A stretch of DNA of 37,132 nucleotides from Prevotella sp. (GTDB lineage: Bacteria; Bacteroidota; Bacteroidia; Bacteroidales; Bacteroidaceae), in NCBI GenBank assembly GCA_017618275.1, contig JAFZUS010000154.1, positions 1-37,132 on the forward strand. Reading direction: 5' to 3'. Both the position numbers and the translations under genes were made by a program. Positions within the stretch are counted from its first letter, which is position 1, and each line of letters opens with the position of its first letter. The notes below the pieces were generated by a model. That model was given only the letters and a program-made list of their open reading frames with translations. It was not told the origin of the DNA and ran no database searches. Shown one piece after another: positions 5,120 through 24,334 of the stretch.

Positions 5120-5617
5120 GTGAAATCCTTGATTCGTGCGGTTTTTCTGGTGCTGTTGTTGGTAGGATGTACTTTCGATGACCACAAAGACAGTCCTGAT
5201 CCTGATGAGACGAACCTTATCAGGGTGGGGGATCGTTTGCCTTCTTTTTCTGTGGATGTCATAACGGGTGAGGGGACTGGTGTGTTCTCTACTGAGAAAC
5301 TTACAGGCCTTACCGTTATCGTCTTCTTTCATACGGGTTGTTCAGATTGTCAGCGTGAACTTCCTAAACTCAACGACTATTATTTAGCACATCGCGATGA
5401 GTCTGGATTCCAGATGGTGGCCATTGCTAGGGAGGAGCAGCAGGAGAGCATTGCGGCCTTCTGGCAGGAGCACCATTTGTCGATACCTTATTCTCCACAG
5501 AAAGACCGTCGCATATTCAGCCTTTTTGCCACTCAGACCATTCCTCGAGCCTATATTTGTTCGGCTGACGGGATTGTGCAGTGGATGGGAATTGAACAAT
5601 TCACAATTAATTACTAA
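5120..5617 (+). CDS. Thioredoxin-like (TlpA/redoxin type) lipoprotein
   Basis: 165 residues. The N-terminus is a lipoprotein signal peptide with lipobox LLLVGC (Cys near residue 17). A redoxin domain follows: VGDRLPSFSVDVITGEG, then VIVFFHTGCSDCQRELP with a CxxC active site (C-S-D-C), and the cis-Pro-type stretch TIPRAYI near residue 142. The likely role is thiol-disulfide exchange or peroxide handling in the periplasm. The start is GTG. A TTG three codons later would also leave a workable signal peptide, and the promoter position makes either possible. It is transcribed divergently from sppA. No dedicated partner gene is visible, so the substrate is unknown. Confidence 0.8.
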   Translation: MKSLIRAVFLVLLLVGCTFDDHKDSPDPDETNLIRVGDRLPSFSVDVITGEGTGVFSTEKLTGLTVIVFFHTGCSDCQRELPKLNDYYLAHRDESGFQMVAIAREEQQESIAAFWQEHHLSIPYSPQKDRRIFSLFATQTIPRAYICSADGIVQWMGIEQFTINY

Positions 5618-5717: not shown

Positions 5718-5725
5718 TATCTTTG
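5718..5725 (+). promoter_or_regulatory. -7 element of the fimbrial operon
   Basis: TATCTTTG fits TAnnTTTG exactly and lies 76 bases before the GTG of the first fimbrial-operon gene. No TTTG-like -33 box is found at the right distance (bases 5693-5698 read TCTACA), which suggests a weak or activator-dependent promoter. Its last base is the first base of an inverted repeat (5725-5750). Confidence 0.6.
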
Positions 5726-5801: not shown

Positions 5802-6389
5802 GTGAAGAAGAATTTGCGAAAGACGTTGATGGTCTTTTTGACCATTCTATTGGCGGCAGACATCGGTACTGCACAAGCCCAGCAAGTAGCCCTGAAGACG
5901 AACCTGCTCTATGATGCTACGACTACGCCCAATATCGGCGCGGAGATGGGCATTGGCAAGAAGTCCTCCGTCCAGTTGTTCTACGGTCTAAACCCTTGGA
6001 AGTTCGGCCATGACGGCGACATGAAGTATGCCAAGCACTGGATTCTCAATCCAGAATACCGCTATTGGTTCTGTCAGCGGTTCAATGGTTCGTTTGTCGG
6101 CATCCATGCCTTTGGCGGTGAATACGATGCAGCCAATGTCAACCTGCTTTTCTGGGATGAATTGAAGGACCATCGTTTCGAGGGCTGGTATGTTGGCGGC
6201 GGCATCAGTTACGGCTATCAGTGGGTGCTCTCCCGTCACTGGAACTTTGAGGCAGCCATCGGTGTTGGAGCCGCCTATATCGACTTTGACAAGTTCAACT
6301 GTGGTGAATGTGGCAAGAAGGTCGACGACGGCCATAAGATATACATTGGCCCCACCAAACTGGCCCTTTCCTTATTATATATGTTCTAA
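5802..6389 (+). CDS. DUF3575 family outer-membrane-type protein, first gene of the fimbrial operon
   Basis: 195 residues starting at GTG. A signal peptide ends near AQAQQ (residues 24-28). The mature part begins with VALKTNLLYDATTTPNIGAEMGIG, followed by alternating aromatic strands such as SVQLFYGLNPW, WILNPEYRYW and GWYVGGGISYGYQW, and ends in an aromatic C-terminus (LLYMF). This is typical of DUF3575, a small beta-barrel-like family commonly found next to fimbrillin genes in Bacteroidales. A role in outer-membrane placement of fimbrial components is an inference from its neighbours. The downstream gene starts 12 bases later. Confidence 0.85.
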   Translation: MKKNLRKTLMVFLTILLAADIGTAQAQQVALKTNLLYDATTTPNIGAEMGIGKKSSVQLFYGLNPWKFGHDGDMKYAKHWILNPEYRYWFCQRFNGSFVGIHAFGGEYDAANVNLLFWDELKDHRFEGWYVGGGISYGYQWVLSRHWNFEAAIGVGAAYIDFDKFNCGECGKKVDDGHKIYIGPTKLALSLLYMF

Positions 6390-6401
6390 TTCCGAGAATC
6401 C

Positions 6402-7886
6402 ATGAACAATCGCTATTTCCTCATAGTAGTACTGTCTGCCTGTATGTCGGCAGCAGTCGCACAGACTTCCATTCTGCTGACTGGCGAGAAGAGTGGCAGT
6501 GACACCCGTGTGAAGGTCAGTAACTATCAGGTGGGTCATGTAGGCGACCAGACAGTGGTGTCGCTCGATTTCGTGCTCGACTCCCTGTTCGTTCCCTCCA
6601 ACCGCTACCGTGCCTTCACTCCGATCATCAAGACTAAGGACGGCGTTCATGAGCAGCGTATGAAGACCCTGCTTGTCACGGGTCGCACTCAGGAGATTAT
6701 CTTTGAACGCGAGGGCATTGATCCCCTCTATGCTGACAATTGCGTGAAGGTACGTCGCCAGAAGGGCGAGCCTCAGACCTACAAATATGCCGATGCTGTG
6801 GAAAGCCAGTCCTGGCATGATGGGGCCGATGTCTTTGTGGAGTGTGACCTCTGTGGCTGCGCAGATCGGTTGAAGTCAGACATGGCCTATATCACCAGTC
6901 TCCTGCCGCCCGATCCCTACGAATTGGTGGAATATGTTGAGGCAGTGCCCACCCATGCCAAGAAAGAGCGTAGTCTGCATGGCTCAGCCTATATCACCTT
7001 TGTGGTTGATAAGTGGGAGATGAAACCCGACTATATGGACAACCGTCGTGAAATCCGCAAGATTACCGATACACTTGATGTGATGGTGGCAGATCCCAAT
7101 ATCACTGTTCGCGAGATTAAGATTCATGGCTGGGCTTCGCCAGAGAGCCCCTATAAGCATAATGAGATGTTGGCCAACAATCGTGCCAAGTCGCTTACCG
7201 AGTATGTGAAGGGTCTCTATAACCTGCCTGCTAACGTCTTCGCTCCTGCCGAGGCTACGCCGGAAAACTGGATTGGTTTGCGTGCTGCCGTCGAGGAGAT
7301 GGACGAGCAGACTCTTCCTCATAAGCAACAGATCCTTACTATTATTAATAAGGTGTTGGCAGACCTTGACAAGAATGTCACCAACCAGGCCGACCGCGAC
7401 GAACTGTCTATCCGCAGCAAGTACCCCGAAGAGTACCGTTATCTGTTGAAGGAAGTCTATCCCGGTCTGCGCCGCTCCGACTATGAAATCTCTTTCAACT
7501 TCCACGATTTCACTGTCAGTCAGGCCAAGGAGATCTTTAAGACCAAGCCCTATCAGTTGTCGCTACGCGAGATGTGGGATGTTGCCAATACCTACGAGCA
7601 GTATAGTCCTGAGTACAATCAGGTCATCCAGACGGCCGTTAATGTCTATCCCGATGAGCCGGAGGCCCTGATTAATCTGGCTAATGTTGCCATGCACCAG
7701 AAGGATCTGCTGAAGGCTGAGACGCTATTGAAGCGTGCTGGCGACAGTGCCGAGGCTGATCAGGCCCGTGGTGTATTGGCCATGCTCCAAGGCAATTATG
7801 CCGAGGCGGAGAGGCTGCTCAATGCCGCCGCCAGCAAGGGCCTTAATGTTTCCAAGAACCTCGAAGCCCTCAAGCAATTACAATAA
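6402..7886 (+). CDS. DUF3868 / OmpA-like / TPR protein of the fimbrial operon
   Basis: 494 residues. A signal peptide is cleaved near AVAQ (residues 18-21). The N-terminal third fits the DUF3868 family and contains a CDLCGC cysteine cluster. From about residue 195 an OmpA-like peptidoglycan-binding region follows (ITFVVDKWEMKP, then IKIHGWASPESP and NEMLANNRAKSLTEYV). The last 90 residues look like TPR helices (EALINLANVAMHQKDLLKAE, QARGVLAMLQGNYAEAERL). DUF3575 followed by DUF3868 is a usual opening pair of Bacteroidales fimbrial operons. The likely role is to fix or assemble the pilus in the envelope, with the OmpA part holding the cell wall. Confidence 0.85.
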   Translation: MNNRYFLIVVLSACMSAAVAQTSILLTGEKSGSDTRVKVSNYQVGHVGDQTVVSLDFVLDSLFVPSNRYRAFTPIIKTKDGVHEQRMKTLLVTGRTQEIIFEREGIDPLYADNCVKVRRQKGEPQTYKYADAVESQSWHDGADVFVECDLCGCADRLKSDMAYITSLLPPDPYELVEYVEAVPTHAKKERSLHGSAYITFVVDKWEMKPDYMDNRREIRKITDTLDVMVADPNITVREIKIHGWASPESPYKHNEMLANNRAKSLTEYVKGLYNLPANVFAPAEATPENWIGLRAAVEEMDEQTLPHKQQILTIINKVLADLDKNVTNQADRDELSIRSKYPEEYRYLLKEVYPGLRRSDYEISFNFHDFTVSQAKEIFKTKPYQLSLREMWDVANTYEQYSPEYNQVIQTAVNVYPDEPEALINLANVAMHQKDLLKAETLLKRAGDSAEADQARGVLAMLQGNYAEAERLLNAAASKGLNVSKNLEALKQLQ

Positions 7887-7941
7887 AACAAAATATATTT
7901 CAAATCAATTTAATAATTAACTCTTTTAAAACAACAAGCTT

Positions 7942-9879
7942 ATGAAAAAATTAAGTTTCTTGGCATTAGCAGCAGTAGGATTACTGCTCGGTGCTTGCTC
8001 GTCCGACAAGGATGTGGCAAATGAGCCTACTCCTATTGGAGAAGATGGTAACCAGTTTATTGCTTTGAACATCAACCTGCCGGTTGACAACTCTTTTGCA
8101 ACTCGTAATGCTACTGAGGCAGACGACAACAACTACGAAGACGGCACTTTTGAGTTGAACGATGGTCTTAATTCAGAGTACACCGTTAATAATGCAACTC
8201 TGGTTGTTTTCCATCCTGCAGCTTCTGGCAAAGAATCTGATGCTACCTTTGTGGCTGCCTATGACATTAATCCTGAGCCTTGGAAGACATCAACAGACTA
8301 TCAGGTAACAGATTACAGTACAAAGATCGTTCAGAAAGTAGGTACAACGGTTCGGGCTGGTGATCTCGCACTTGTCATTCTGAATAGAAATAGTCTGGTC
8401 GGTTTTAAAGCAGATGGTACGTTCCAGGTTAATGATGCAGATTTCTCTGGTACTTTCGGAACTTTGCAGTCAGAGATAGCCGCATCTGCTGGTAAGGGCA
8501 AGACTGCTGCTGCTGAGATGATAACAGATGGTTTTTATATGGCTAATTCTCCTTTAACAGATGTGCCAGGTTCACAAGCTGTTAAACCTACAGGCGCAAC
8601 AACCCGCACGCTCGTAGAAATCAAGAATGTATATGAGACAGAGGCTGCTGCTCGTGCTGGAGAATGTGCAGAGATATATGTAGAGCGTGGTATGGCTAAG
8701 GTAACAGTTCACTCTGATATTACAAATTCCAAACTGACGACTCAGTATGGTGTAGGCGTAGAGGGTGTAACAGCAGCCGACCTTAAACTTACTCTGGATG
8801 GATGGGTTCTTGACCACACGAACACGAAGTCTTTCTTTGTTCGTTCAGTAGAAGGTCATGATGACTTCATCGGCCTGATCAATGCTGATGCCAACAAGTA
8901 TCGATATATTGGTAAGACCGATATCGTAGAAGGTATTGGCGCTTCAGATACCTATAAGTATCGCACTTATTTTGCAAAGGATCCAAACTACGAAAAGGCA
9001 TTCACTAATTTTGGAGAAGCAATGGGTGAATTGGCGTCAGTTGGTGACATTACTGCTGATGGAGTTTTATCTGATAAGTTTGGTGATTCCAACCCCTTGT
9101 ATTGCTATGAGAATACATTCGATGTTGCTCACCAGTCTGTCAACAATACGACGCTTGTCCGTCTCAAGGTGACTGCAAAAACTGGTACTGCAGGAGAAGA
9201 TCTCTATATTATCAATGGCAACAACAGTACTATTTATAAGTATAATGATGTCATTACGTTACTCCAGAAAAAGTGCGTTGAACTTTATGCTGCTTCTGGC
9301 GTTGTTGTAAATTCCACAGTTGTAGGCACTGACTTTGCTATTACATTAAGTGCAAGGGATGCTGACGGTTATCAAAACATAAGCGCTATTGATCCTGCTA
9401 CTGCGGCAGCGAAAGTTACTTCAGGAACTGCTCCTACTGCAGCTGAGTTGCTTGCTGCTGTTAAACTGCTCTATAAGGATAATACCGTCGGGAAAAAGAA
9501 TGGTGGTATTCTGTGTTATGAAGGTGGCGTGTCTTACTACACTATCCGTATCAAACATTTCGGTGACGTGTTGACTCCTTGGAAGAAGGCAGGTTCAAGT
9601 ATTACGCCTGTACCATCATTAACAAACGGTTCATATCCTGATTTTGATAGTGATGATGATGATAAAAAACTTGCATGTACTAACAACTACCTTGGCCGCT
9701 ATGGTGTGCTCCGCAACAACTGGTATGACATTCAGGTGGCTGATATCAAGTATCTCGGTGAGGCTGTACCTGTGAACTACACTAATGACCCAACCCCGGA
9801 TGATGAGATTGAGGGCTACATCGCCGTTAAGATTAACATTCTCTCATGGGCTAAGCGTACTCAGAACTGGCACCTCTAA
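7942..9879 (+). CDS. Mfa1-type major fimbrial subunit (type V pilus lipoprotein)
   Basis: 645 residues. It has a lipoprotein signal with lipobox LLLGAC (Cys19), then the fimbrillin start FIALNINLPVD and a Thr-Arg site (FATR55) where an Arg-specific protease would trim the precursor. Other fimbrillin traits are ATLVVFHPA, the MAKVTVHSD strand near residue 252, and the closing RNNWYDIQVADIKYLG and INILSWAKRTQNWHL. In Porphyromonas the cleaved subunits polymerise by strand exchange, and the same is expected here. It is longer than P. gingivalis Mfa1. Coding DNA is more AT-rich than in the flanking core genes. It lies 55 bases after the DUF3868 gene with no strong promoter between them. Confidence 0.88.
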   Translation: MKKLSFLALAAVGLLLGACSSDKDVANEPTPIGEDGNQFIALNINLPVDNSFATRNATEADDNNYEDGTFELNDGLNSEYTVNNATLVVFHPAASGKESDATFVAAYDINPEPWKTSTDYQVTDYSTKIVQKVGTTVRAGDLALVILNRNSLVGFKADGTFQVNDADFSGTFGTLQSEIAASAGKGKTAAAEMITDGFYMANSPLTDVPGSQAVKPTGATTRTLVEIKNVYETEAAARAGECAEIYVERGMAKVTVHSDITNSKLTTQYGVGVEGVTAADLKLTLDGWVLDHTNTKSFFVRSVEGHDDFIGLINADANKYRYIGKTDIVEGIGASDTYKYRTYFAKDPNYEKAFTNFGEAMGELASVGDITADGVLSDKFGDSNPLYCYENTFDVAHQSVNNTTLVRLKVTAKTGTAGEDLYIINGNNSTIYKYNDVITLLQKKCVELYAASGVVVNSTVVGTDFAITLSARDADGYQNISAIDPATAAAKVTSGTAPTAAELLAAVKLLYKDNTVGKKNGGILCYEGGVSYYTIRIKHFGDVLTPWKKAGSSITPVPSLTNGSYPDFDSDDDDKKLACTNNYLGRYGVLRNNWYDIQVADIKYLGEAVPVNYTNDPTPDDEIEGYIAVKINILSWAKRTQNWHL

Positions 9880-9883
9880 TCTC

Positions 9884-9897
9884 CTTTATATATAAAG
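9884..9897. repeat. Palindrome between major subunit and anchor genes
   Basis: CTTTATATATAAAG is a perfect 14-base palindrome starting 5 bases after the stop of the Mfa1-type gene. It could act as a weak hairpin that lowers expression of downstream accessory genes relative to the major subunit. It has no T run and is AT-rich, so it may equally be chance. Confidence 0.35.
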
Positions 9898-9931
9898 AAG
9901 GTATATACAATAAGTTTTTAATACTACGACA

Positions 9932-11074
9932 ATGAACGTTCGAAACATCTTACACAAGGGCGTACTGCTGCTGATGGCAGCAATGTTGATGAACAGTTGC
10001 GACATGATGAAGGAAGACCTGAGTGACTGTCCTACAGGCTTGTACGTCAACTTCGTTTACGACTACAACATTCAGCGTGCTGACATGTTCAAGGATCATG
10101 TAGGCGGCCTGACGCTCTATGTATTCGATGAATCGGACCGCATTGCCGCTCAGCGGACGGTGAGCGGGAGCGAACTCTCCAAATATGGATATTATATCCA
10201 TTTCACGGAACAAGAGTTGGCTCCCGACCACCTGTACCGTCTGATTGCCGTTGCCATGCAGAACGACTGGTCTACAGCATCTGCTGCAACAGGCTATAAA
10301 CCAACAATTAACGACAATCGCACGTCGCTCAAGGTGTCGCTGACTCATCAGACCGGTGTTCCCTATGGGGCTGTTTCCAATGTTGCTCCACTTGATACGC
10401 TTTGGCACACACTGACCACTCTCAAGGCCGATGCCGAGAACCTGCCTGCCGCTACCCGATACCGTCTATCAACTGATGGTACTATCAGTACGAACGGTAT
10501 AGATCAGGTGAGTGTAATCAGTGGTGAGCCGACATACGCTACGGTCAGCCTGATTCGTGACACCAACCATCTGAATATCTCCCTCCGTGAACTTGATACA
10601 CCGGAGGAGGTGAAAGATGAGGATTTTGAGGTGTTCATCATTGATGCGAACACCGATGTGGACTATGCCAATAATCTCCTGATGCCTGGTGACTCTGTCA
10701 TCTATCGCCCATACGCGCAGTGGACCACTGTTGTCGAAGGCACAGGCAGTATTGCTGCAGATTACTCTGCACATTACGATCTGATGTTCAACCGCTTGAT
10801 GTATAACACCACGACTAATGACAACGCAGTGTTATGCATCCGTAATAAGAAGACTGGTGAGAATGTGGCCATGCTCAATCTGCCCTACATCCTATGTACG
10901 GGTCGCATGGCATACGAGATCAATAATTACTCTCCACAGGAATATCTGGATCGTGAATACGACTATCGTCTCGAACTGTTCCTGAAGAATGGTAAGTGGG
11001 CGCAGGGCGCATTCATCGATGTCTGTGTCGATGTGCTTTCATGGGCGCGACGGATACAATATGTCAGTCTGTAA
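9932..11074 (+). CDS. FimB/Mfa2-type fimbrial anchor lipoprotein
   Basis: 380 residues. The lipobox is MNSC (Cys23). Soon after comes the family hallmark DLSDCPTGLYVNFVYDYN, then GGLTLYVFDESDRI and YRLIAVAMQND. The C-terminus ends IDVCVDVLSWARRIQYVSL. In Porphyromonas the Mfa2/FimB protein keeps its lipid, anchors the pilus base in the outer membrane and limits its length. In agreement with that role, no Thr-Arg trimming site is seen shortly after the lipidated cysteine. Its end closely resembles that of the preceding major subunit (LSWA[KR]R.Q...L). Confidence 0.9.
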   Translation: MNVRNILHKGVLLLMAAMLMNSCDMMKEDLSDCPTGLYVNFVYDYNIQRADMFKDHVGGLTLYVFDESDRIAAQRTVSGSELSKYGYYIHFTEQELAPDHLYRLIAVAMQNDWSTASAATGYKPTINDNRTSLKVSLTHQTGVPYGAVSNVAPLDTLWHTLTTLKADAENLPAATRYRLSTDGTISTNGIDQVSVISGEPTYATVSLIRDTNHLNISLRELDTPEEVKDEDFEVFIIDANTDVDYANNLLMPGDSVIYRPYAQWTTVVEGTGSIAADYSAHYDLMFNRLMYNTTTNDNAVLCIRNKKTGENVAMLNLPYILCTGRMAYEINNYSPQEYLDREYDYRLELFLKNGKWAQGAFIDVCVDVLSWARRIQYVSL

Positions 11075-11081
11075 ATTGTAA

Positions 11082-12695
11082 ATGTTAATGTCTTTCTACA
11101 GTAAACATCTCGTCAAGTCTCTTCTGGCAGTCTTTCTGACCGCCCCTCTACTCTTGTCGTGCTATAGTTACGATAAGGATGAGGAGGCTATTGAGAAGGC
11201 TGTAAAGGAAGGCGAGAATTATTTATGCCTGACGATTGCCGTCAATACGGATTCCAACGCCAGAACTCGAGCACCTCAGGGTGGAGAGAATGGTGATGGC
11301 CGTGAGGCTGGCTTCCAGCGGGAAAACGAGGTGACTGGCATAACATTGATATTATATGAGGATGCCGATGGAATCAATACGACCGGTAATCCTACACTTT
11401 CTTTTGTGAAATACTTCCCAACAACACTTGTCAGCCGTGATGCAGCAGGTTCGCCGCAGAGTGGCTCACATGATTCTGGTGCCGACAAGAGTGGCCTTGA
11501 TGAGGCTTATTATACCACTGGCGACCAGTTAGTGAAAAAAGGTAATCTGACATTTGGCAAGACGTATCATGCTATTGTCGTTGCAAATAGAGACCTGACT
11601 TCTGAACTGAACACTACGTCTAAACTCAATGACGTGAAAGGCCTTATTTATGGTTCCGATGACTTGTATTCCGGTGAATATGGCAAGGCTGCCTATCTCT
11701 GCCATAACTTCATGATGAGTTCTGAATATGATTATGTGTTGGATTTGACAACCCCAACACTTGTCGAACCCACTAAAGTATATTATCGTCCCACAAATCC
11801 AATCCGTATTGAGCGCCTTACTGCTCGTATAGACTTCTGGGCTGCTGGTGGAACCTATACAGAGAAGGTTGACAAGAGTGGCACACCTACCGATATATAT
11901 GGGAATCGCTATGGCTATGTCTATAATGTTGATGGCTCAAGTGATAAGTTTGTTGTGGTCAGCATCACACCGTTCAATCTTTATTCCAAAGGAACGACAT
12001 ACGGTGGAGAAAAATTATTGAAGCAGTTGAACACAGGCTATTTGTTGGATGAAACAACAACAAACTATGTTCTCGATCCTTCTACGGCTCAGAAGACTAT
12101 CGCAAATGTCTCGGCATTTGCTTCTGATGCAACGTATCTTAATCCGCTCAGTGCCATCTATAATGACTTGAATGCCGTTACTCCGAAAGCAATGTCTGCT
12201 GCTGGTACCCCGGCATACTATCAGACGGTAACGGCCATGCACAACAAAATTTCCAACCAAGGAGGCTTTGGTGCAACGTTTGATGATAATACAGGAGGTG
12301 CTAAGACGGGTGAAAATATCATAGTGGCCTATCCGATGGAGAACACGCTTCCTGAGGAGGCAACACCATCAACGCCTCTTTACACCTATGCGACGGGTGT
12401 TGTCATCGAGGGTGATTACTATGCAGGTGGTGATTTGACTGTTGCACCGACGGGAACCCGTGTCTATATTGGTTATCTGATGCATCAGAATGGTACAGCC
12501 ACTTATACGCCGTTTAAGTCGGATGATCCTACCGTCCAGACCGCAGTTCCCTCTGTAACACCGATGAACTACGGCGTTGTGCGCAATAACATTTACCGTA
12601 TAAACATAGATAAGATAACTCCTGACAAATCGCTTGTCTTGAAGATTAAGGTGAAGATGTGGGATCCGTTCTGGCATGACTATATCTATATGTAA
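11082..12695 (+). CDS. Fimbrillin-like (Mfa family) lipoprotein subunit
   Basis: 537 residues. The lipobox is LLLSC (Cys27), then an acidic linker, the strand YLCLTIAVNTD and a Thr-Arg site (ARTR63-A). Further fimbrillin-type features are VTGITLILYEDADG, YHAIVVANRDL, IRIERLTARIDFWA and the terminal VVRNNIYRINIDKI and LKIKVKMWDPFWHDYIYM. It starts 7 bases after the anchor gene, so it is surely co-transcribed. By position and fold it should be an accessory or shaft-adaptor subunit comparable to Mfa3/Mfa4. It could also be an alternative major subunit, given its full-length fimbrillin layout. A second Met two codons in is an equally good start. Confidence 0.8.
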   Translation: MLMSFYSKHLVKSLLAVFLTAPLLLSCYSYDKDEEAIEKAVKEGENYLCLTIAVNTDSNARTRAPQGGENGDGREAGFQRENEVTGITLILYEDADGINTTGNPTLSFVKYFPTTLVSRDAAGSPQSGSHDSGADKSGLDEAYYTTGDQLVKKGNLTFGKTYHAIVVANRDLTSELNTTSKLNDVKGLIYGSDDLYSGEYGKAAYLCHNFMMSSEYDYVLDLTTPTLVEPTKVYYRPTNPIRIERLTARIDFWAAGGTYTEKVDKSGTPTDIYGNRYGYVYNVDGSSDKFVVVSITPFNLYSKGTTYGGEKLLKQLNTGYLLDETTTNYVLDPSTAQKTIANVSAFASDATYLNPLSAIYNDLNAVTPKAMSAAGTPAYYQTVTAMHNKISNQGGFGATFDDNTGGAKTGENIIVAYPMENTLPEEATPSTPLYTYATGVVIEGDYYAGGDLTVAPTGTRVYIGYLMHQNGTATYTPFKSDDPTVQTAVPSVTPMNYGVVRNNIYRINIDKITPDKSLVLKIKVKMWDPFWHDYIYM

Positions 12696-12713
12696 ACGCT
12701 CAAAACGATAATA

Positions 12714-14588
12714 ATGATGAAACGATTCACTTCTCTATATTATATAGCCCTTTCAGCACTACTGATGCTGACTGCCTGTCAAAGTGACGAGGTGTCAGAA
12801 CAGGGTGGGGGGCAGTTGCTTGATGGCAAGGTTGGTGTTCACCTGAGGGTGGGAGTGGCAGGTTCTCATGCCACTCGTGCTTGGGAAGATGCGACCAATG
12901 CCGTCACTGCAGAGATGATGAACGTTTGGACAGTCGTGGTCGTCAATAATTCTGATAATAAAGTCGTATCCATCTATGCCTGCAAGCCTTCAGGAGATCC
13001 TGACCAGGAAATCGACGATTATGTGGAACTGCCAGCCGCAGGTACTACTTATCGTTTCTATTCCTTTGCTAACATGTCTCCGAAGGTGGTGATGTCACTT
13101 TTGGGCATCAGTGGTGAGGGTACTGCTTCTGAGAAAGCCTTAGCACGGACTCGTGATGCCAGTGCTGGAACACAGTATGCAGATTCTCCTTCTCAGGGAA
13201 CCAATAATAATGCTACAGGAATGGTCACTTCTTATGTTGGTGACGGGGATGACTTTTATTCCAACCAAACTTATACGAATAATACCTATTATTCCATTGC
13301 TTTTAATGCTGATGAAACCGTCACAGAGGATGATGCTAATGCAAAGACCGTTAACATTGCAGGTAATAATTTCAATGTAACGGCAGATAATGGCTATGGG
13401 GCTGTTGGCATCCCGATGAGCAACGTTCAGACGATTGAGGTTAGTTCATCCACAGAGACTGTTGATCTGATTGTCATCCGTATGATGGCTAAGTTTGAGT
13501 TGCGTGTTTATAACGATAAGGGTTCAGATGTTACAATTGAATCCATCACTTTGACGGATGTGACGGCAAATACGAATGGAAATTTGAAACTCCTACCTAA
13601 TCTAAGTGCTGCAGGACACGGTTCTATGGAGGTTACGACACATGGCGATATTCGACCAAACCTTGGTACAGTTACACAGAAAGATTTGACATTATATCCC
13701 AATTCCTCACAGGGGGTAGTCAGCGCTACAGCGAATAACACATCAGGCACTCCTACCATTTTCACTTTCTATGTCAACGAGAGTTCTGCCCCTAATAATG
13801 CCTATGGCCAATTCTTCCTGAAAATAAAACTGACAGGAGAGACAGAGGAACGTTATGCCCTTATCGATAATGCCAATGCTGCTGGTTATACAGGTACATG
13901 GAACTACATCGCCCGCAATGACTACCGTATCATCCCGATTGTGCTCGATGACTATAAGTTTGATATCATTCCTTACGACTTCCCTGCCATTGGTGTCTAT
14001 CCAGCCTCGGTGAAGGAAGAGGATGGACTATATACCATTAACTTTCATGACTATGGACATTTCCATTTGCTTCCCGTGGTGAAGAAGGTTAGCGATGGCA
14101 GTATCGTGCCATTTACAGCTGCGACACCAACGGCTACCTATGTAATTAGTTCGTGGGGTTTGGTTGATAATGACTTTTCTCATTCTTGGAGTTCATGGAC
14201 GGATGTTTCGAAAGCGACAGCAACCACGGATAACGGTTCGTTCTACCTCAGTGGCTATAGTGTAAATCCCCCAGTGGATGGTGATGAGGTAGGTGGCTTC
14301 CCCGTCTGGTATCCGAATGATGGTGTAGCAGGCCCTCAGTGGGATCCTGTAGGAGGAACAACTTATAATCCCTTTATTTTTGGCTATATCGCTGATCCAG
14401 GAGCAGCATTGACTGCCGACAAAAAGATTTACCATGAGTTCTCAATCTACCTATATAAGCAAGGAATGAGTGCTCCTCGACAGATAACCTACCGAATTCT
14501 GATGATTCTCGATAAAGACCAGATGATGTATGCCCGCCAGCGTAGTGTTTCAGGGTACAGATTTCACGACTATTCTAATTGCAGATAA
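12714..14588 (+). CDS. Fimbrillin-like accessory lipoprotein
   Basis: 624 residues. The lipobox is MLTAC (Cys22), then VGVHLRVGVAG and the Thr-Arg site HATR55-A. Fimbrillin-like pieces are NVWTVVVVNNSDNKVVSIYA, YRFYSFANMS, IVIRMMAKFELRVYN and IARNDYRIIPIVLDDYKF. The C-terminal part (from about residue 430) is different, with the unusual closing stretch RQRSVSGYRFHDYSNCR instead of a typical final beta strand. It is probably an accessory or tip-proximal subunit. Specific family membership is not certain. A run of six G (12807-12812) lies near the N-terminus. The next ORF starts 8 bases after the stop. Confidence 0.72.
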   Translation: MMKRFTSLYYIALSALLMLTACQSDEVSEQGGGQLLDGKVGVHLRVGVAGSHATRAWEDATNAVTAEMMNVWTVVVVNNSDNKVVSIYACKPSGDPDQEIDDYVELPAAGTTYRFYSFANMSPKVVMSLLGISGEGTASEKALARTRDASAGTQYADSPSQGTNNNATGMVTSYVGDGDDFYSNQTYTNNTYYSIAFNADETVTEDDANAKTVNIAGNNFNVTADNGYGAVGIPMSNVQTIEVSSSTETVDLIVIRMMAKFELRVYNDKGSDVTIESITLTDVTANTNGNLKLLPNLSAAGHGSMEVTTHGDIRPNLGTVTQKDLTLYPNSSQGVVSATANNTSGTPTIFTFYVNESSAPNNAYGQFFLKIKLTGETEERYALIDNANAAGYTGTWNYIARNDYRIIPIVLDDYKFDIIPYDFPAIGVYPASVKEEDGLYTINFHDYGHFHLLPVVKKVSDGSIVPFTAATPTATYVISSWGLVDNDFSHSWSSWTDVSKATATTDNGSFYLSGYSVNPPVDGDEVGGFPVWYPNDGVAGPQWDPVGGTTYNPFIFGYIADPGAALTADKKIYHEFSIYLYKQGMSAPRQITYRILMILDKDQMMYARQRSVSGYRFHDYSNCR

Positions 14589-14596
14589 TTGATATT

Positions 14597-17500
14597 ATGA
14601 TGAAATATATTAAAAGACATATCCTTCTGCTTTTAATCTTGTTCTGTTTTTCATTACGGACTGTTTTTGGACAAGACTTAACAACTGCCAATTATAATAA
14701 TTCTTCGGCATGTGCCTATGTGTTGGGTAGTAGCCAAGAGAGTGGTGTCACCCTTTATGGTGATTGGAATGTTTCACCCGAGAATTATGCAGATTTATCA
14801 AACTTAGGAAAACTGATGGCTCTATTTGAAGGAGCAACTCCTCGGTTTTTATTCAATGAAGACGGATCTACAAGGCTGGAAATCACAGGTTCTGGAGATT
14901 ATGCAAGTGTTCAGGGTAATCTGATTACCATAGACTTGGCTAAGATAAAAAGTGATAAAGGCTATGCTCGTCTGAATGCTATCAAAGTGAACTGGGGGGC
15001 TACTACCACTCTAAATGTCTTAAGATTGGAGAATTTTAGAGAGGCTAGCGAGGCCAACTGCGTGGAGCATGTCCTCTATGTGAAATATACAAATGAATGG
15101 GAAAAGATTTTCTCGATAGATTTCGCAGGGCTGTTTAAAGACAAGATATTGGAGTGTTTCGGTAAGTCGAATATCAATGAATTTGGCGATTTGTATCTGC
15201 GCTGGTATATTGCTGATAATACCACCAACTCGTATATTAAAGGTAGTGACGGTTTACCCATATCTCAGAAGGAACCAATATTGACTGCTGCAGGTTCAAA
15301 TCGTTATTATGAGAATGTAGGAACACTTTGGTTCCATCAAGGTGCCAATGCTTTTTCTTCTGATGCCGATTTCTCGAATGCAATTAATGTGAATGTTGAT
15401 ATGAATTCTACCACGGGATTCTTTCAAAGCAATGTTCACATGGTCTGCCTGATGACTGATGATTTGACAGGTATATCTCCACAATTAGAACCATCTAACC
15501 TGAAGCATAAATTTATCATTCGGTTCATAAAAGAGGAGGATGCATTGAGTGTGGGCTTCCCGTTGTCTGCGAATTCTCCTACAGAAACCTTTACCAAGCG
15601 GGTGGAAGGAATGAATGATTCTGAAAACACCTACTACTTTCAGTCGGCAATGGCAGAACTATACACACGAGCCACGGCTGCAGGTAAGCCATTGAATGGA
15701 AAAACTCCGAAGTATGCCCGGTTCTATTTGACCAGTTCCAGTGGTGTGGTGATGGATGCCTCTTCGACATTTGAGGCTGTTGGGGGCAACAGTTTAAGTT
15801 ATTATCAGGATAAAGGATCTAAAGGACTTGTATGGACTAGTGATAGTTGGCCAGGTGATTTCTTGATTGGTAATCTGTCAGTTACAAAGTCCAGCAGTCA
15901 ATCTTGGAAAGACCTTCGGGTCGTCTGTGACCTGACAGATGACTTGCGTAGCAGTTACAAAGTCGGTGATGTGTTGATGGAAGAACCGACACAGTTGGCG
16001 GCCCGATTGATAATCGGTTTCAAAGACAATGCCGAACCAGATGGTTTTGAGGGAGTGTTGTCGGAAGATGCCTTTACCCACACCAAGGAAGTCTTTATGA
16101 CTGCTGCTGATATATCAAATGGCTATGTAGTGCTTCCTCTAAGCGAGTCATTTGATAAAATATTGAGTGAGTATAATACTACTGCTGATGCTTTGGGCAA
16201 CAGTCTGCATTTGCGTTGGTATGTAACTTACCGTAATGAGGTAGTGGCTAATTCAGAGTCCTTATTGGCACCCAATGTGTGGTATGCCCATAAGATAAAG
16301 TCGGGAGAAGGCCTTTATTGGAATTCTGCCACAACAGGATATCCTAATCCATGGAATAGTTACTCCACTTCCTCAAGTGATGAAGTGAAGAATGTGTTGA
16401 ACGTGAAGTTCACAAAGACCGATGGCTCAAAGCAATGGACGGACTATAAGATTATCGTTGTGATGAGCAATGATATCTCAGAATTCAATGGTCAGGAAGT
16501 CAATGGTAGCGGTGACTTGGAAAAGGAACCCCGTAGGTTGAACATGAAATACACATTCAGTATCTATAATGAGTCTGATTTCCAGTTTGTACACTATAAA
16601 GGAGCTTCTGGACGTGACTATATAACCCATACTGACGATGCTTCTATTAGTACGACGAAACCTACAAGCCAGTCTTCATGGAATGAGACAACCGATAATA
16701 TTGAAAATGCTGCGATAGACATCCGACAAGGCGTACATACAGTGGAGTATGATGTCTTTATCAATAAGAACGGAGGTGCTAAGAGTATTCTTTTGCCGTT
16801 TGAAGGATATACAGGTACGGAAGGTAATAATCTGGAGCCAATGGCCTATATCCGCTGGTATGACTGGGCGACAGACTTGAACTCTACACGTCTCAATCAA
16901 GTGGGTACATGGCTGGAAAATAAGACTGAGAATTCTGTAAGTCGTGGCTTTTTCATGCTGAACAATAGTTGGGGTGGCCAGAAACCCACACACAGCAAAG
17001 TTGGTGTGACCTATGATCCCAGTAGCCTAACAGATGCAGGTGACATCATTGCCTGTGATGTCAGTAAGTACTACGATGGCATTTTCAAAGGCGTTTCGGC
17101 AGATCCTCGTGGAGACTTTGCGGCTCAGGGATACACTGTACCAGTGTTGGTACATGAACCAACGCTGAGTACACGCTATCTGTTCCATATTTATCCGTCA
17201 TCAGTTGTAGCCGACAAAATTACTACTGCTAGTAATAGGTATCTTTCGACTGTTAATGAATTAAAGGCCGGCACTAAGACCTTTTCTCAGGTGAGGACAT
17301 CCATTTTCGACTTCTATGAAAATAACGGGCGTGTAATCGTGTCACTTAATGGTACGACAGGTGATTTCGCTCTGCGTGCACAGTTACAATCGATAGATAA
17401 TTATTTTGTGGTGGAAAATGAACCCTGTACCGATATAAGATGGGTCGCTTATTTTGAAGACGAGAAAGGGTTGTGGGAACCAACAGAATTGTGGGCATTA

Positions 17501-20500
17501 ACGGTAAAAGAGCAGAGGGGAAGAGTTTTTAAATTTGACCTGTCGAGCCTCACAGGAAGTTATACTTTACTGAGCAATTCTTCTGAAACAAAGACTGTGA
17601 CTGCATCAACTGGTATGCGTTTTCATGTCATTGGTGTGGCAAGAGATGGTTCGTGGCATCAAGCAGGTGTTATTCACTATGAACTCCAGTTTATCAATGC
17701 ACCTGCATATCTGGCCGAAGAACTGACTACCAAAGATGTCAAGCGCACGGATGAGTATATGAGCCTGCATTTGGATCATGCTGGCGTGGTGAATTTTGAC
17801 AATTATTTCCCAGACACCAACGAACCGACTACTGAGGAAGAGAATATCCGCACTATGCCCTTGGACTGGAAAGAGGCTGAATATGGATTCTGTTACCCTA
17901 GCATCGACAGGTTCCGTATTGCCACGGGCTATTCAGGATTAACGCCTATCCATGGCGATTATATTCTTTTGAAGACGATGAAAAAGGCCGGAATTTCAGC
18001 AGGTACGAGTTGGGGTAATATGTCGAATAACAATCCCGATGCTGGGTATAACCACACGTATCTTTGGTATAATTGGGATGGTATAGAGTTGGATGACTAC
18101 ACGCATACTGTTACCGACAATAATAGGTATGGTGCATTTTTCTATGTGGATGCTTCTGATGAGTCGCGTACTATTGCTACACTTGACTTTAATGCTCACC
18201 TATGCCAAGGGTCCCAGATATATTTTACAGCGGCTATTGCCGACGTGACAAGCAGTGGATTGACCAGCCCGCAGTTGATGGCACACGTCTATGCTTTTGA
18301 TCCAACTACTGGTGAAAAAATACAAGTGATATCGTTCCTGACCTGTGTGCTGAATACTGTTAGTAATAATGATGATGGCTATCAATACAACAAGTGGTAT
18401 CAGGTGTATGGCTATGGTACGATTCCTGAGTATATAGATATTAGTAATTATGAAGATTTTACTGTAGATATAGACAACTATTCGAAAGATACCAACGGTG
18501 CTGACTTCTGCGTAGACCAGATAACGTTCTATACCAGTACGGCACAGGTAAACATCCTACAGGATGACGTTGCCTGTGGTACCGATAATATCACGATGAG
18601 GATCTATATGGATGGCGAGACGCTGAAGACGGCTCTTGGCGCTTCCGACACCTCGAAGGATATATATTGGAGTATCTGTGATGAAACTGGAACACCAGTA
18701 GAGAGTAATGTCATCTATGAGGGAACCGTCAGTGGCACAGATAAGTTCGGTAAAAGGTCTGTTATTCCTAACTATACGCTTAATGCTGATGGTACGTTGA
18801 CCGCAGCATCAATAGCCCAGGGTTTCTATAAAGGTAGCGATGGCAATGTTTACTTTACATTGTTAGAAAAACCATTGCCATTGGAGGAGGGAAAACGGTA
18901 CTATGTGTCTATTTATTCTCTCGGTAATATACCAACTGTTGATTCACCTTCGCCAGCCTCTGGCTGGGGCTCCCCAGAGATAGGCTGTACAGTCTGTAGC
19001 GGTTATTTTGTTGCTCAGAAGATGCACCTCACTTTTTCGAGTTTTGGTGGTGATGTGACGGGTACGGTTGTGGGTAATTGCGATGGTAGTCCTGTTGATG
19101 TGTCTACGGGTATGGAGTTGAAACGGCCAGACAGCACCAATCCGTCTGGATTCGTAACCTATAGCAATCTTCCTTTCGACTTCTATAGGGGAACAAAGGA
19201 AGAATTGCTGGCCTCTACCAGTGTTGCTTCGCTTGATTACATTACTGAGGCCATAAGGGCATTTCGGTCATGGGATTATTCGCAGCATTCTTCATCCTAC
19301 ACGGATTACCAGACAAATCCTTCTGGACTTGCTGCTGACATTGCTTCGTTTAAGGCATCAGATGATACAAATGGTGCTATCATCGAGACTATGGCTACTA
19401 CTGGCGATTTGATTTTATCGGCCACACAAACATTCAAGGACCAGATGTATGGCACGGACAAAAAGGAGTTCAACTATTTGGCATTCTCTATCTCAGAAAA
19501 TACTTTAGACAGCAAGGTCATCTGTTCGCCTTTAGCCTTTTCGTTTTCTTACGATCCTACTTATTCTACGCCGCTTATCACTCTTGGCTTTAGTGATGTG
19601 ACTTATCCTGATGATAACAGAGGGGTGCGTCTTGGATTGGAGCAGTTGAATAACATGAAGAATGACTATACTGTTCATATTCCTGTACACAGTTATTTGG
19701 ACAAGGATCGTGACAATATAAAGCCAAGCCAGCGTGCTTTGACTATCAAAGGAAATCTGGTGCTTTATTCTTCTACCGATCCAGTGGTGCAGGCAGACCT
19801 TACTGTTAATGGTATTAGGACAGCAGCGGTGTTTACGCAATCATCAGTGAATGCGGATAATATGTATATCTCACTGAACTTCCATGGAACAGGTGTTGAT
19901 GACATCCAATATCATGAGGGTTATTCATACGACATGATGTTTGAGTACCGTGAATCAGATGATGCTGATGGCTTGTGTGATCCGACTTGTTTGTTGACTC
20001 TGAAGGTTGTGCCTAAATATGTAACATGGAATCAGACTGAAATAACTGGTAATGACAACTGGAGTAATGATGGAAGTTGGAAGCGTTCGGTAAAGGAAGA
20101 ATTGTACAGCACAAACTATCAGAACAATACAGACATCAATACTAGTTTGGACAATTCGCATGCAAACTATGTGCCGATGAAGTTCACATATGTCACGATA
20201 CCGACAGCTAACAAGGCTCCGAATTTAAAATACTTGACTACAGGAAGCAACGGTCTGTATAATAATGTAGGTTCAAATGCGACGATAAATATCGAATACG
20301 ATATGATGGTGCGCTATGGTGAGGATGGCTGTCACGGTCATTCCACAAGCAGTGGAACTTATACTGCCACAGGTACATCCATCTATGACTGTGAAAAGTT
20401 TTATTCAAATTGGTGTAAGGAAATATACTTCAAACCAGGGGCAGAACTGCTGAATCAGCAGTATCTGACTTACGAAAAGGCTTGGGTGGAGAAGGAAATG

Positions 20501-21985
20501 GTAGCAAACAGATGGTATCTGATGTCCGCTCCATTACAAAATACATATGCTGGAGATATGTATGTGCCATATTCGAGTGTAGAAGCCAATAAAGGACGGC
20601 AGATAACAGAGGCATTCCAGTCCATTACGTTTAACTCTACCAATTATAGTCGCACACTTTATCCAATCTACCAGAGATTATGGAAACAGACGGGAGCGAA
20701 GGTCTATACAAAGACGTACGACATTCGCCAGACGGATTATAGCGCTAACCTGAACTTTGGTGCAGTGTCGAGTGTGGCAACGGAATGGAGCCATACTTAC
20801 AATGATGTTCAGGTGCCTTATACTACCTTGACGGGCTTCTCCATCCGTGCCCATAAGAAAGATCAGGCGGCAAACGCCCTTATTAGACTGCCTAAGGAAG
20901 ATACGAGTTATGACTACTATCAGTGGGATAACACATCTCCGACGGATGGAAAACTGACGCAGAATGTTACAAAGCCTGTTACTGGCAAGCTGTTAACGGA
21001 TGGTATGGCAAACATTTCTGGCGTTACCTATGGTGTAGCATACGGCACCCAAGCGAGGACAGCAGGTGATGGTACTCAAACAGAGACCCTCAGCAACTTA
21101 CAGTCAAACGATGGTTATGTGCTTGTAGGCAATCCATATATGTCATCAATTAAGATGTCCGAGTTCTTTACAGTGAACAATAGCGTTTTGAATGACCATA
21201 ATTACTGGACATACGAAGCAAATACTGTTGGAGCATACAAGGATGCTGGCACCATTAAGCCGCTTCAGGCTTTTTTCGTCAAGGCAACGGGTAACATTCT
21301 GTTTACTCCAGCGATGATGATTGATGGAAATACCGCTCCAGAGAGTGCGACTGCTCAGGCTCGCCCCAGAGTGACTATGACGGCGGCTAATAGTCGGGGC
21401 AGTAGTTCTGCCAGTGTGGAGATGGATGATGAGGCTTCGGCAGATTATATTAGTTCAGAAGATGTGGAAACGCTGTTTGACTCAAATCTCTCAGATGTGC
21501 CGATGATATATACTGTTGCAGGAGACAGAGCTGTGAGTATTGATGTGAGACCCGACTTTGGCATGGTGCCTTTTGGTGTGGCCTGTGCTTCGTCCGACCA
21601 GCCAGTAGAGGTGACAATCGATACTTCTCTTTATGTCTTTGATGCTGTGACGGGAGAGACGAATGCTGTGAGTGAGGGTAGTTCCTTCACCATTCAGCCA
21701 AACGATTACGGACGTTACTTCTTAACAACGAATAAGGACATCACAGGTATTCGTGAGATGCAGACTGATGAAGGTGTCGTGGTGAGTGTGCGTGGAAAGA
21801 CTGTGACGGTACGCTCTACCTCTAGGCTGAAGTCGGTGCGTGTACTGACTATCGGTGGTGATATTGTTGCCAGCCAAAAGAATTGTGGCACAGAGACGAC
21901 CCTTGACCTCGCTGTTGGTGGCGTGTTCCTCGTGGAAACGCAAACGGCAACTTGTCAGAAGGTCATAAAGGTGATGGCTAGATAG
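14597..21985 (+). CDS. Giant secreted fimbria-operon protein with repeated modules and a sorting-type C-terminus
   Basis: 2462 residues from the ATG at 14597. An upstream in-frame TTG at 14579 overlaps the previous gene and is less likely. A signal peptide ends near TVFGQ (residue 26). The first 800 residues hold diverged modules of about 170-210 residues: an [IV]RWY- or RFY-containing strand (near residues 199, 374, 537 and 751), and in the first three a later strand with TDDL or SNDI (near 280, 439 and 616). The middle is rich in Asn, Thr, Ser and Tyr. Near 1970 comes NRWYLMSAPLQNTYAGDMY. The last 85 residues (VVVSVRGKTVTVRST to KVIKVMAR) resemble a type IX secretion sorting domain. By position it may be the counterpart of Mfa5, a large accessory or tip protein, but no von Willebrand A domain was seen. 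Confidence 0.75.
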   Translation: MMKYIKRHILLLLILFCFSLRTVFGQDLTTANYNNSSACAYVLGSSQESGVTLYGDWNVSPENYADLSNLGKLMALFEGATPRFLFNEDGSTRLEITGSGDYASVQGNLITIDLAKIKSDKGYARLNAIKVNWGATTTLNVLRLENFREASEANCVEHVLYVKYTNEWEKIFSIDFAGLFKDKILECFGKSNINEFGDLYLRWYIADNTTNSYIKGSDGLPISQKEPILTAAGSNRYYENVGTLWFHQGANAFSSDADFSNAINVNVDMNSTTGFFQSNVHMVCLMTDDLTGISPQLEPSNLKHKFIIRFIKEEDALSVGFPLSANSPTETFTKRVEGMNDSENTYYFQSAMAELYTRATAAGKPLNGKTPKYARFYLTSSSGVVMDASSTFEAVGGNSLSYYQDKGSKGLVWTSDSWPGDFLIGNLSVTKSSSQSWKDLRVVCDLTDDLRSSYKVGDVLMEEPTQLAARLIIGFKDNAEPDGFEGVLSEDAFTHTKEVFMTAADISNGYVVLPLSESFDKILSEYNTTADALGNSLHLRWYVTYRNEVVANSESLLAPNVWYAHKIKSGEGLYWNSATTGYPNPWNSYSTSSSDEVKNVLNVKFTKTDGSKQWTDYKIIVVMSNDISEFNGQEVNGSGDLEKEPRRLNMKYTFSIYNESDFQFVHYKGASGRDYITHTDDASISTTKPTSQSSWNETTDNIENAAIDIRQGVHTVEYDVFINKNGGAKSILLPFEGYTGTEGNNLEPMAYIRWYDWATDLNSTRLNQVGTWLENKTENSVSRGFFMLNNSWGGQKPTHSKVGVTYDPSSLTDAGDIIACDVSKYYDGIFKGVSADPRGDFAAQGYTVPVLVHEPTLSTRYLFHIYPSSVVADKITTASNRYLSTVNELKAGTKTFSQVRTSIFDFYENNGRVIVSLNGTTGDFALRAQLQSIDNYFVVENEPCTDIRWVAYFEDEKGLWEPTELWALTVKEQRGRVFKFDLSSLTGSYTLLSNSSETKTVTASTGMRFHVIGVARDGSWHQAGVIHYELQFINAPAYLAEELTTKDVKRTDEYMSLHLDHAGVVNFDNYFPDTNEPTTEEENIRTMPLDWKEAEYGFCYPSIDRFRIATGYSGLTPIHGDYILLKTMKKAGISAGTSWGNMSNNNPDAGYNHTYLWYNWDGIELDDYTHTVTDNNRYGAFFYVDASDESRTIATLDFNAHLCQGSQIYFTAAIADVTSSGLTSPQLMAHVYAFDPTTGEKIQVISFLTCVLNTVSNNDDGYQYNKWYQVYGYGTIPEYIDISNYEDFTVDIDNYSKDTNGADFCVDQITFYTSTAQVNILQDDVACGTDNITMRIYMDGETLKTALGASDTSKDIYWSICDETGTPVESNVIYEGTVSGTDKFGKRSVIPNYTLNADGTLTAASIAQGFYKGSDGNVYFTLLEKPLPLEEGKRYYVSIYSLGNIPTVDSPSPASGWGSPEIGCTVCSGYFVAQKMHLTFSSFGGDVTGTVVGNCDGSPVDVSTGMELKRPDSTNPSGFVTYSNLPFDFYRGTKEELLASTSVASLDYITEAIRAFRSWDYSQHSSSYTDYQTNPSGLAADIASFKASDDTNGAIIETMATTGDLILSATQTFKDQMYGTDKKEFNYLAFSISENTLDSKVICSPLAFSFSYDPTYSTPLITLGFSDVTYPDDNRGVRLGLEQLNNMKNDYTVHIPVHSYLDKDRDNIKPSQRALTIKGNLVLYSSTDPVVQADLTVNGIRTAAVFTQSSVNADNMYISLNFHGTGVDDIQYHEGYSYDMMFEYRESDDADGLCDPTCLLTLKVVPKYVTWNQTEITGNDNWSNDGSWKRSVKEELYSTNYQNNTDINTSLDNSHANYVPMKFTYVTIPTANKAPNLKYLTTGSNGLYNNVGSNATINIEYDMMVRYGEDGCHGHSTSSGTYTATGTSIYDCEKFYSNWCKEIYFKPGAELLNQQYLTYEKAWVEKEMVANRWYLMSAPLQNTYAGDMYVPYSSVEANKGRQITEAFQSITFNSTNYSRTLYPIYQRLWKQTGAKVYTKTYDIRQTDYSANLNFGAVSSVATEWSHTYNDVQVPYTTLTGFSIRAHKKDQAANALIRLPKEDTSYDYYQWDNTSPTDGKLTQNVTKPVTGKLLTDGMANISGVTYGVAYGTQARTAGDGTQTETLSNLQSNDGYVLVGNPYMSSIKMSEFFTVNNSVLNDHNYWTYEANTVGAYKDAGTIKPLQAFFVKATGNILFTPAMMIDGNTAPESATAQARPRVTMTAANSRGSSSASVEMDDEASADYISSEDVETLFDSNLSDVPMIYTVAGDRAVSIDVRPDFGMVPFGVACASSDQPVEVTIDTSLYVFDAVTGETNAVSEGSSFTIQPNDYGRYFLTTNKDITGIREMQTDEGVVVSVRGKTVTVRSTSRLKSVRVLTIGGDIVASQKNCGTETTLDLAVGGVFLVETQTATCQKVIKVMAR

Positions 21986-22007
21986 TGAGAAAATGCTCTT
22001 TATTAAA

Positions 22008-22045
22008 TCAAATCATCGATCGAGATAATTCAATCGATGATTTGA
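22008..22045. repeat. 13-base perfect inverted repeat, possible 3' end signal of the fimbrial operon
   Basis: TCAAATCATCGAT (22008-22020) pairs perfectly with ATCGATGATTTGA (22033-22045) around a 12-base loop, starting 23 bases after the giant gene's stop. No T run follows, so it is not a standard intrinsic terminator. It may protect the mRNA end. Confidence 0.6.
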
Positions 22046-22212
22046 GTTAACTCACATGTTTTTGTGGATTATAAGTTCGCTCGATTCAGATGACAAATCG
22101 ACTCGAATGAAGGGTTCGGAGAACCTTGCCGCTGACAAGTTGGCAGATTCGGCTGAGAGTTGGGAACCGGGAGTTGAGAGCTGGGAGTTTGGCACGGTTT
22201 TGGCAGAATGAA

Positions 22213-24296: not shown

Positions 24297-24328
24297 TTTG
24301 GACGTTTCGCAAAAATGTTGTATCTTTG
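24297..24328 (+). promoter_or_regulatory. Promoter of the kinase-RapZ fusion gene
   Basis: TTTG (24297-24300), a 20-base spacer and TATCTTTG (24321-24328) match the Bacteroidetes consensus. The ATG at 24335 is only 6 bases after the box, so transcription is predicted to begin at or within three bases of the start codon (leaderless mRNA). This also rules out the in-frame TTG at 24326, which lies within the promoter. Confidence 0.85.
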
Positions 24329-24334
24329 CAGCGC

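Follow-up and report, generated by a model that had tools for sequence, protein, structure and literature searches.

A giant last gene of a Prevotella type V fimbrial operon as a candidate T9SS-exported tip adhesin paired with the preceding fimbrillin gene

Which kind of protein closes a Prevotella fimbrial operon when its last gene encodes 2462 residues? The question arises from a stretch of 37,132 nucleotides of Prevotella sp. (assembly GCA_017618275.1, contig JAFZUS010000154.1; C28 in our numbering), hereafter the window, which belongs to a 3.6 Mb genome of 92% completeness and carries seven consecutive genes on the + strand between positions 5802 and 21985. The last of them, here called the giant, is probably a fimbrial tip adhesin at the position of Mfa5, exported by the type IX secretion system (T9SS), with the product of the preceding gene, fimX6, as its probable partner. 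The case was assembled from computed gene content, family conservation, a family-level T9SS tail, the T9SS genes of the genome, paired inheritance and repeat expansion. Other loci and genomes are designated by L and G numbers, respectively.

Gene content of the operon and tail of the giant

An initial annotation, made from the letters alone, had described seven open reading frames (ORFs) on one strand with gaps of 7-55 bases, and this arrangement was confirmed, the gaps measuring 12, 55, 52, 7, 18 and 8 bases. Gene 1 (5802-6389, GTG start, 195 residues) encodes a DUF3575 protein (PF12099, E 3.9e-73), followed by a DUF3868/TPR protein of 494 residues (gene 2, 6402-7886), in which TPR_2 scored above its cut-off, DUF3868 reached 21.1 bits against a cut-off of 27 and a trace of OmpA was seen in the Pfam scan; homologs of gene 2 are present in the operons of relatives. 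Gene 3 (7942-9879, 645 residues) encodes an Mfa1-family major fimbrial subunit (NF038041, 157.9 bits against a cut-off of 130; Fimbrillin_C, 4.9e-24), and an Mfa2/FimB-type anchor lies 3' of it (gene 4, 9932-11074, 380 residues; PF08842, E 1.7e-40, 139.8 bits against a cut-off of 21.2). The Mfa3 position is occupied by an Mfa1-like fimbrillin lipoprotein (gene 5, fimX5, 11082-12695, 537 residues), below cut-offs with 59.3 bits for NF038041 (cut-off 130) and 21.9 bits for Fimbrillin_C, and the Mfa4 position by a fimbrillin-like lipoprotein of 624 residues (gene 6, fimX6, 12714-14588), which had no significant Pfam or NCBIfam match in the library profile scans. The giant (gene 7, 14597-21985, ATG start at 14597) therefore closes the operon behind a pair of accessory lipoprotein genes, as in the mfa plan. 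Visual inspection gave lipobox cysteines for genes 3-6 and a non-lipidated Sec signal for the giant. The gene content of the initial annotation was thus upheld for DUF3575, TPR_2, Mfa1 and Mfa2, while DUF3868 and gene 5 stayed below cut-offs and gene 6 went unmatched; its mfa-type plan with the giant at the operon end is supported by the profile-based identities and the spacing. On this content, the locus is predicted to encode a fimbria of type V (mfa-type); besides the major subunit and the anchor it specifies two fimbrillin-like lipoproteins and, at its end, a protein of 2462 residues.

The C-terminal ~80 residues of the giant (21743-21982, + strand) are predicted to form a T9SS type A sorting domain, by family evidence and not by the protein's own score. 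The protein had been called sorting-tailed from the start; the tail stands at family level, although the whole window protein gives no TIGR04183 match and alone remains below cut-off for the C-terminal domain (CTD) known from Mfa5. At E<=1, 34 of 40 family tails matched TIGR04183 (best 3e-7) and 20 of 40 matched PF18962 (best 1.3e-5). Searched against the PDB, the tail profile found RemA (5.2e-12) and the Arg-gingipain CTD (1.7e-5), and a profile of the C-terminal 1,200 residues found RemZ (9.8e-13) across ~290 profile positions; weaker rows of the tail profile (an endonuclease at 0.0025, a glucosaminidase at 0.018, a proteinase inhibitor at 0.56 and fatty-acid-binding proteins at 0.06-0.34) were not used. 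A near-invariant lysine stands five residues from the end of the giants, at the same distance as Lys1110 of RemZ (1,114 residues), the single conserved lysine that bonds PorV (PMC10994853). The host genome encodes the translocon SprA (2625 bits) and the carrier PorV (505 bits), both above cut-off, together with the sortase PorU, given by its E-value (1.8e-255). PorU is above cut-off in 286 of 299 genus genomes and, being near universal, gives permission for T9SS export rather than evidence of association.

By itself, the whole giant gave no match at E<=1 in Pfam, NCBIfam or the PDB; residues 1027-1355 matched nothing in the PDB at E<=5, and profile A3 (window residues 22-1221) retrieved one antibody chain only (E 1). 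The absence of a von Willebrand factor A (vWA) domain, claimed initially, was borne out, with no Pfam vWA match at E<=1 in the giant nor at E<=0.1 in 18 family members. Known domains in these 18 members were Por_Secre_tail (6 members) and single-member matches, the best being F5/F8 type C (3.2e-7). A repeat profile delineated an array of 4 degenerate repeats (15176-17230, + strand; residues 194-878), and across 49 giants bearing 0 to 16 copies the correlation between length and copy number was 0.87: giant length tracks an expandable N-terminal repeat array. The class B giants introduced below (2,848-3,220 residues) score 0-1 copies, an undercount because the profile was grown from the window repeats. 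Alignments of 13 and of 11 close relatives share nine invariant cysteines, of which only C1643 stays invariant across 18 diverse members. Residues ~33-145 match proteins of ~1,250 residues in L080, L081 and L083; an N-terminal domain common to CotH-type proteins was considered and dropped, the window's own CotH protein showing no similarity.

Fimbrial context and paired inheritance of fimX6 and the giant

The giant family is Prevotella-centred and spans about 1,500-4,550 residues (longest 4,549). Matches at E<=1e-3 occurred in 84 of 299 genus genomes, many covering only residues ~33-145, and a scan of public genomes returned 13 loci, 12 from Prevotella or Prevotellaceae and one from Bacteroidaceae; one came from a rumen sample, and others carry RUG names, which we take to denote rumen genomes. 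Sixty further regions were selected through matches to the giant or its core (4 of them through the N-terminal stretch alone); they represent the better matches of the genus and order searches and not every match. Another 20 regions were selected through DUF3575, largely as places without an already sampled giant, and are therefore uninformative on giant frequency.

Among 71 distinct giant-like ORFs, 56 scored >=250 bits with the core profile, and 44 of these were eligible for a context count, having a full ORF and >=2 kb upstream (12 were not). In 40 of the 44, fimbrial genes precede the giant on its own strand, in regions selected by giant matches and not by fimbrial matches. The four exceptions are L054 and L055, whose ORFs are broken within the gene, L059, which follows another giant, and L057, in which no fimbrial genes were detected. 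The link to fimbrial loci implied by the initial annotation, which would have fallen had homologs proved to lie mainly elsewhere, holds for close relatives on this count. As a rule fimX6 directly precedes the giant, although in some loci an additional ORF or a second giant intervenes, or fimX6 was not detected. Among weaker relatives (core <250 bits) the picture is more mixed: 4 of 11 eligible rows are fimbrial, and two of these 4 are pieces of L073. When 247 genomes of the order were searched, the core profile matched 117 at E<=1e-5; among the matches listed, those above 250 bits outside the genus were in G403 and G507, both within DUF3868 operons (L116, L117), and most others spanned only a portion of the core, often the module that precedes the CTD.

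Two arrangements of giants and their relatives were recorded beside these counts. In G245, contig C109 holds three giants on one strand over ~38-94 kb (L059, L062), with a DUF3575 gene upstream of them at 93.6 kb; they may constitute an array of candidate tips. In L131, L133 and L134, relatives of 1,571-1,589 residues stand beside a secreted-looking ORF of 813-884 residues with no fimbrial genes detected, possibly another two-gene surface system.

The evidence for a partner comes from per-gene trees of 23 chosen loci (21-23 used per gene, namely those where the gene was detected), inferred as quick IQ-TREE trees under a mixture model, with Shimodaira-Hasegawa-like approximate likelihood ratio test (SH-aLRT) support and approximately unbiased (AU) tests, whose p-values are optimistic because classes A and B were partly named after BLAST-type scores and the first tree. 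Class B (L076, L078, L079, L126) forms one clade for fimX6 (SH-aLRT 99.5) and for the giant (99.6), and the same loci scatter among class A on the first DUF3868, Mfa1, Mfa2 and fimX5 trees. A class B clade was rejected for DUF3868 (p-AU 0.011), Mfa2 (1.2e-45), fimX5 (3.7e-8) and Mfa1 (8.8e-70). A single clade of A and B was rejected for fimX6 (6e-8) and the giant (4e-67), not rejected for DUF3868 (0.052) and Mfa2 (0.18), and recovered for fimX5 with support 90. Three further loci (L056, L060, L063) have DUF3868 and Mfa2 genes far from class A, yet their giant joins class A (98), as does their fimX6 (support 92, not starred). Identity between L079 and the window runs from 69% for DUF3868 and 63% for Mfa2 to 38% for fimX5, 26% for fimX6 and 27% for the giant. 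Both classes may also stand in one locus: in L040 and L042 a class B giant precedes a fimX6-giant pair of class A, and in L035 an A-type fimX6 precedes a B-type one.

Hence fimX6 and the giant have a common tree history at odds with that of the remaining operon genes, as an exchangeable tip cassette would. The simplest reading of the trees would be a two-gene tip cassette, swapped or stacked, and because the pair is inherited together, moving between otherwise different operons, fimX6 is probably the direct partner of the giant. The open-access literature searched reported neither a pairing of fimX6 with the giant nor, for Prevotella, giant tips exported by the T9SS, which is not proof of absence.

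Comparison with known surface proteins and alternative readings

Porphyromonas gingivalis has the order mfa1, mfa2, mfa3, mfa4, mfa5, with Mfa5 as T9SS cargo and Mfa3-5 as the tip complex (PMC5954841, PMC7712824, PMC7835359). Its mfa5 gene varies from 2,946 to 6,615 bp across genotypes, the vWA domain is confined to genotypes A-C, the vWF domain is missing from D and E (E having 6,615 bp, about 2,200 residues), tandem copies occur, and mfa5 genotypes are independent of mfa1-4 (PMC8313007). The likeness to the window therefore comprises the order of stalk, anchor, two accessory lipoproteins and T9SS cargo, the CTD, large sizes, vWF-less forms and tandem copies. These genotypes weaken two statements of the initial annotation, that the last gene is far larger than known accessory subunits and that its size and missing vWA may define a different tip or adhesin class (PMC8313007): because genotype E already combines both traits, they do not alone make a new class, nor is a missing vWA strictly defining against Mfa5, since D and E are both vWA-less. 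The giants nevertheless differ from Mfa5 in forming a different sequence family, reaching 4,549 residues, bearing N-terminal repeat arrays, having a redoxin neighbour and lacking vWA in the 18 scanned. The giant is likened to Mfa5 by position and description, and the sequence comparison with Mfa5 covers the N-terminal half, the crystal structure spanning residues 99-664 (PMC7835359).

Two other kinds of surface protein invite comparison. RemZ and RemA of Flavobacterium johnsoniae are T9SS type A substrates, RemA being a gliding adhesin, and resemble the giant in the CTD, the preceding module and the PorV-binding lysine; the rest of the giant is unmatched, only ~290 C-terminal profile positions align, so that homology is not full-length, and the available text on these proteins mentions no fimbrial operon or repeat array. 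FimC-FimE of FimA fimbriae are lipoproteins. Like the giant, they are accessory proteins of type V fimbriae, but they are matured by gingipain digestion, unlike a T9SS cargo (PMC8313007).

Several observations weigh against a T9SS-exported tip protein paired with fimX6. The window giant's own tail is below all T9SS cut-offs, NF033708 alone matching at E 0.072. Seven of the 11 eligible weaker relatives (L118, L120, L121, L131-L134) have no detected fimbrial genes, four of them (L131-L134) in the window's own genus, so a divergent branch of giant relatives exists outside detected fimbrial loci. The stalk gene likewise departs from the rest of the operon, the A and B clade being rejected for Mfa1 as well (1.8e-10). 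In rank partial correlations of pairwise distances, fimX5 (0.411) and fimX6 (0.406) are about equal as companions of the giant, neither being reached in any of 1000 permutations, and only the trees separate the two genes. Adjacent genes can move together without their products touching, and linkage alone suffices for that. Finally, P. gingivalis mfa5 is transcribed separately (PMC5954841), whereas here the gap before the giant is 8 bases, as read from the genes alone.

Some of these points feed a reading in which the giant works on its own, as a T9SS surface adhesin like RemA or RemZ that is only expressed alongside the fimbria and is anchored at another place on the cell. Profile searches do put RemZ and RemA, and not Mfa5, closest to it among solved structures, the core profile (mostly the module before the CTD) reaches 117 of 247 order genomes at E<=1e-5, and L131, L133 and L134 adjoin the 813-884-residue ORF with no fimbrial gene detected; since 40 of 44 closer members sit downstream of fimbrial genes and one particular fimbrillin gene falls into the same class groupings as the giant, we consider such an adhesin improbable. 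Physical linkage of fimX6 and the giant, exchanged together as neighbours with no interaction, would agree with their spacing of -13 to about 3,000 bases in mapped loci and with a distance test that weights fimX5 equally. It appears unlikely as the whole explanation, given that in the window fimX5 lies 18 bases from fimX6 and fimX6 lies 8 from the giant, yet fimX5 lacks the class B grouping, and that the B label changes 3-4 times on the DUF3868, Mfa1, Mfa2 and fimX5 trees but once on those of fimX6 and the giant.

The giant could also be an ordinary Mfa5 ortholog with nothing else new, in keeping with the operon position, T9SS tail, size variation, tandem copies and vWA-less forms described for P. 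gingivalis mfa5 (PMC8313007). We hold this doubtful: no Mfa5 chain appeared among the PDB matches of the giant or its profiles, the solved part being the N-terminal half, and in P. gingivalis the mfa4 genotype follows mfa1 and not mfa5, whereas here the penultimate gene follows the giant (PMC8313007); the corresponding Mfa4 did not bind Mfa5 in vitro. What can be said is that the giant is a real, widespread Prevotella variant of an Mfa5-type terminal protein, and what is new here is the shared tree history of fimX6 and giant, the tandem giant classes, the length that tracks the repeat array and the recurrent redoxin neighbour.

Under the preferred reading, in which the giant is a T9SS-exported tip adhesin, we infer its export, PorU cleavage, tip location, contact with fimX6 and adhesion as follows. 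Gene 3 would form the stalk and gene 4 the anchor of the fimbria, with genes 5 and 6, in the places of Mfa3 and Mfa4, supplying accessory fimbrillins of the lipoprotein type. The giant, at the Mfa5 position, would enter the periplasm via its Sec signal and cross the outer membrane by the T9SS using its CTD, which PorU would remove. It may then be held at the fimbrial tip as an adhesin, with fimX6 as its probable direct partner and the N-terminal repeat array setting the reach or the number of binding domains.

Redoxin neighbour, flanking features and biological significance

A redoxin/AhpC-TSA (ResA-like) lipoprotein gene (5120-5617, + strand, GTG start; PF00578, E 1.2e-12) ends 184 bases upstream of the operon and is a probable associate. 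With a profile built from sequences of 130-230 residues, 12 loci were seen to carry a homolog at -3 to +25 bases past the giant, the count being 8 of 24 among the cases that could be compared (giants with core >=250 bits and >=700 bases downstream); the window's own redoxin is missing from this neighbour count because it starts with GTG and the ORF caller requires ATG. In L079, the window's sister on the DUF3868 tree, the redoxin lies upstream of the operon as in the window. The redoxin is probably part of the fimbrial system and may act in disulfide maturation. Separately, L104 (4872-6671, + strand) holds a 599-residue ORF in which a redoxin-like domain with a CPDC motif is fused to a fimbrillin-like portion, a hint that thiol chemistry may be connected with type V fimbriae.

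TAnnTTTG is the Bacteroidota -7 promoter consensus. One match, TATCTTTG (5718-5725, + strand), lies 76 bases before gene 1 and is weak evidence; the window holds 32 matches against 20.1 expected, several inside genes. The window scan placed no match within the gaps separating the seven genes, but one at 14375-14382, inside gene 6 and 214 bases before the giant, makes an own promoter for the giant possible. Similarly, no + strand terminator-like site was present in any inter-gene gap in the window scan, which says little because such sites were no more frequent than in shuffles (11 vs 12.5). Just 3' of the giant, an inverted repeat (22003-22050, + strand) may mark the transcript end; the fold of 21990-22075 has -23.1 kcal/mol (z -4.0), has no T tract and is absent from the terminator-scan list.

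Not every comparable operon ends in a member of this family. Operons with DUF3575/DUF3868 in the DUF3575-chosen regions L097, L098, L100 and L101 end in giants of 3,786-3,877 residues, and L102 in one of at least 3,809; these ~3,800-residue ends were undetected by the profile of the window giant and constitute a second class of giant operon ends. A Pfam beta-helix match was shown for L097 only, and T9SS-like tails were recognised by eye in L097, L098, L100 and L101. The operon-end ORF of L107 has at least 3,695 residues, lipoprotein-like ends of 933-1,139 residues occur in L089-L091, L095 and L096 (DUF4906 in L089 and L090), and L094 contains a partial ORF matching the N-terminal stretch of the giant family. 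No vWA match at E<=0.1 was obtained in the 13 proteins scanned, about ten of them operon ends. The second DUF3575 operon of the source genome (L106) is short and ends in a fimbrillin. G024, a single-contig genome, has 11 DUF3575 matches, suggesting that one strain can carry many fimbrial operons.

Elsewhere in the window, a tandem repeat of 11 bases in five copies (25891-25946) lies at the end of the ORF at 24326-25906, upstream of a gene for a 1,633-residue LTD/CotH protein with a sorting-like tail recognised by eye (26123-31024, + strand). Ten bases after it follows the gene for a Cthe_2159-like carbohydrate-binding protein with a dockerin domain (31035-32693, + strand). GroES and GroEL come after the giant in the window, and in L042 (7166-19423) a giant and one ORF are followed by GroEL, a piece of cross-species synteny.

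Taken together with the redoxin, the paired inheritance leads us to propose, tentatively and with slightly less than even confidence, that Prevotella swaps and stacks cassettes of an adaptor fimbrillin, fimX6, and a T9SS-exported, repeat-bearing giant matured via a dedicated redoxin lipoprotein. Such a fimbria would have to bring together, at one fibre, a stalk displayed as lipoproteins and a tip exported through the T9SS, and hence two export routes, and the gene pair inherited together would name the adaptor-tip contact as that between fimX6 and the giant. Exchange of this pair suggests a route by which Prevotella may diversify its surface binding while keeping the same fibre.

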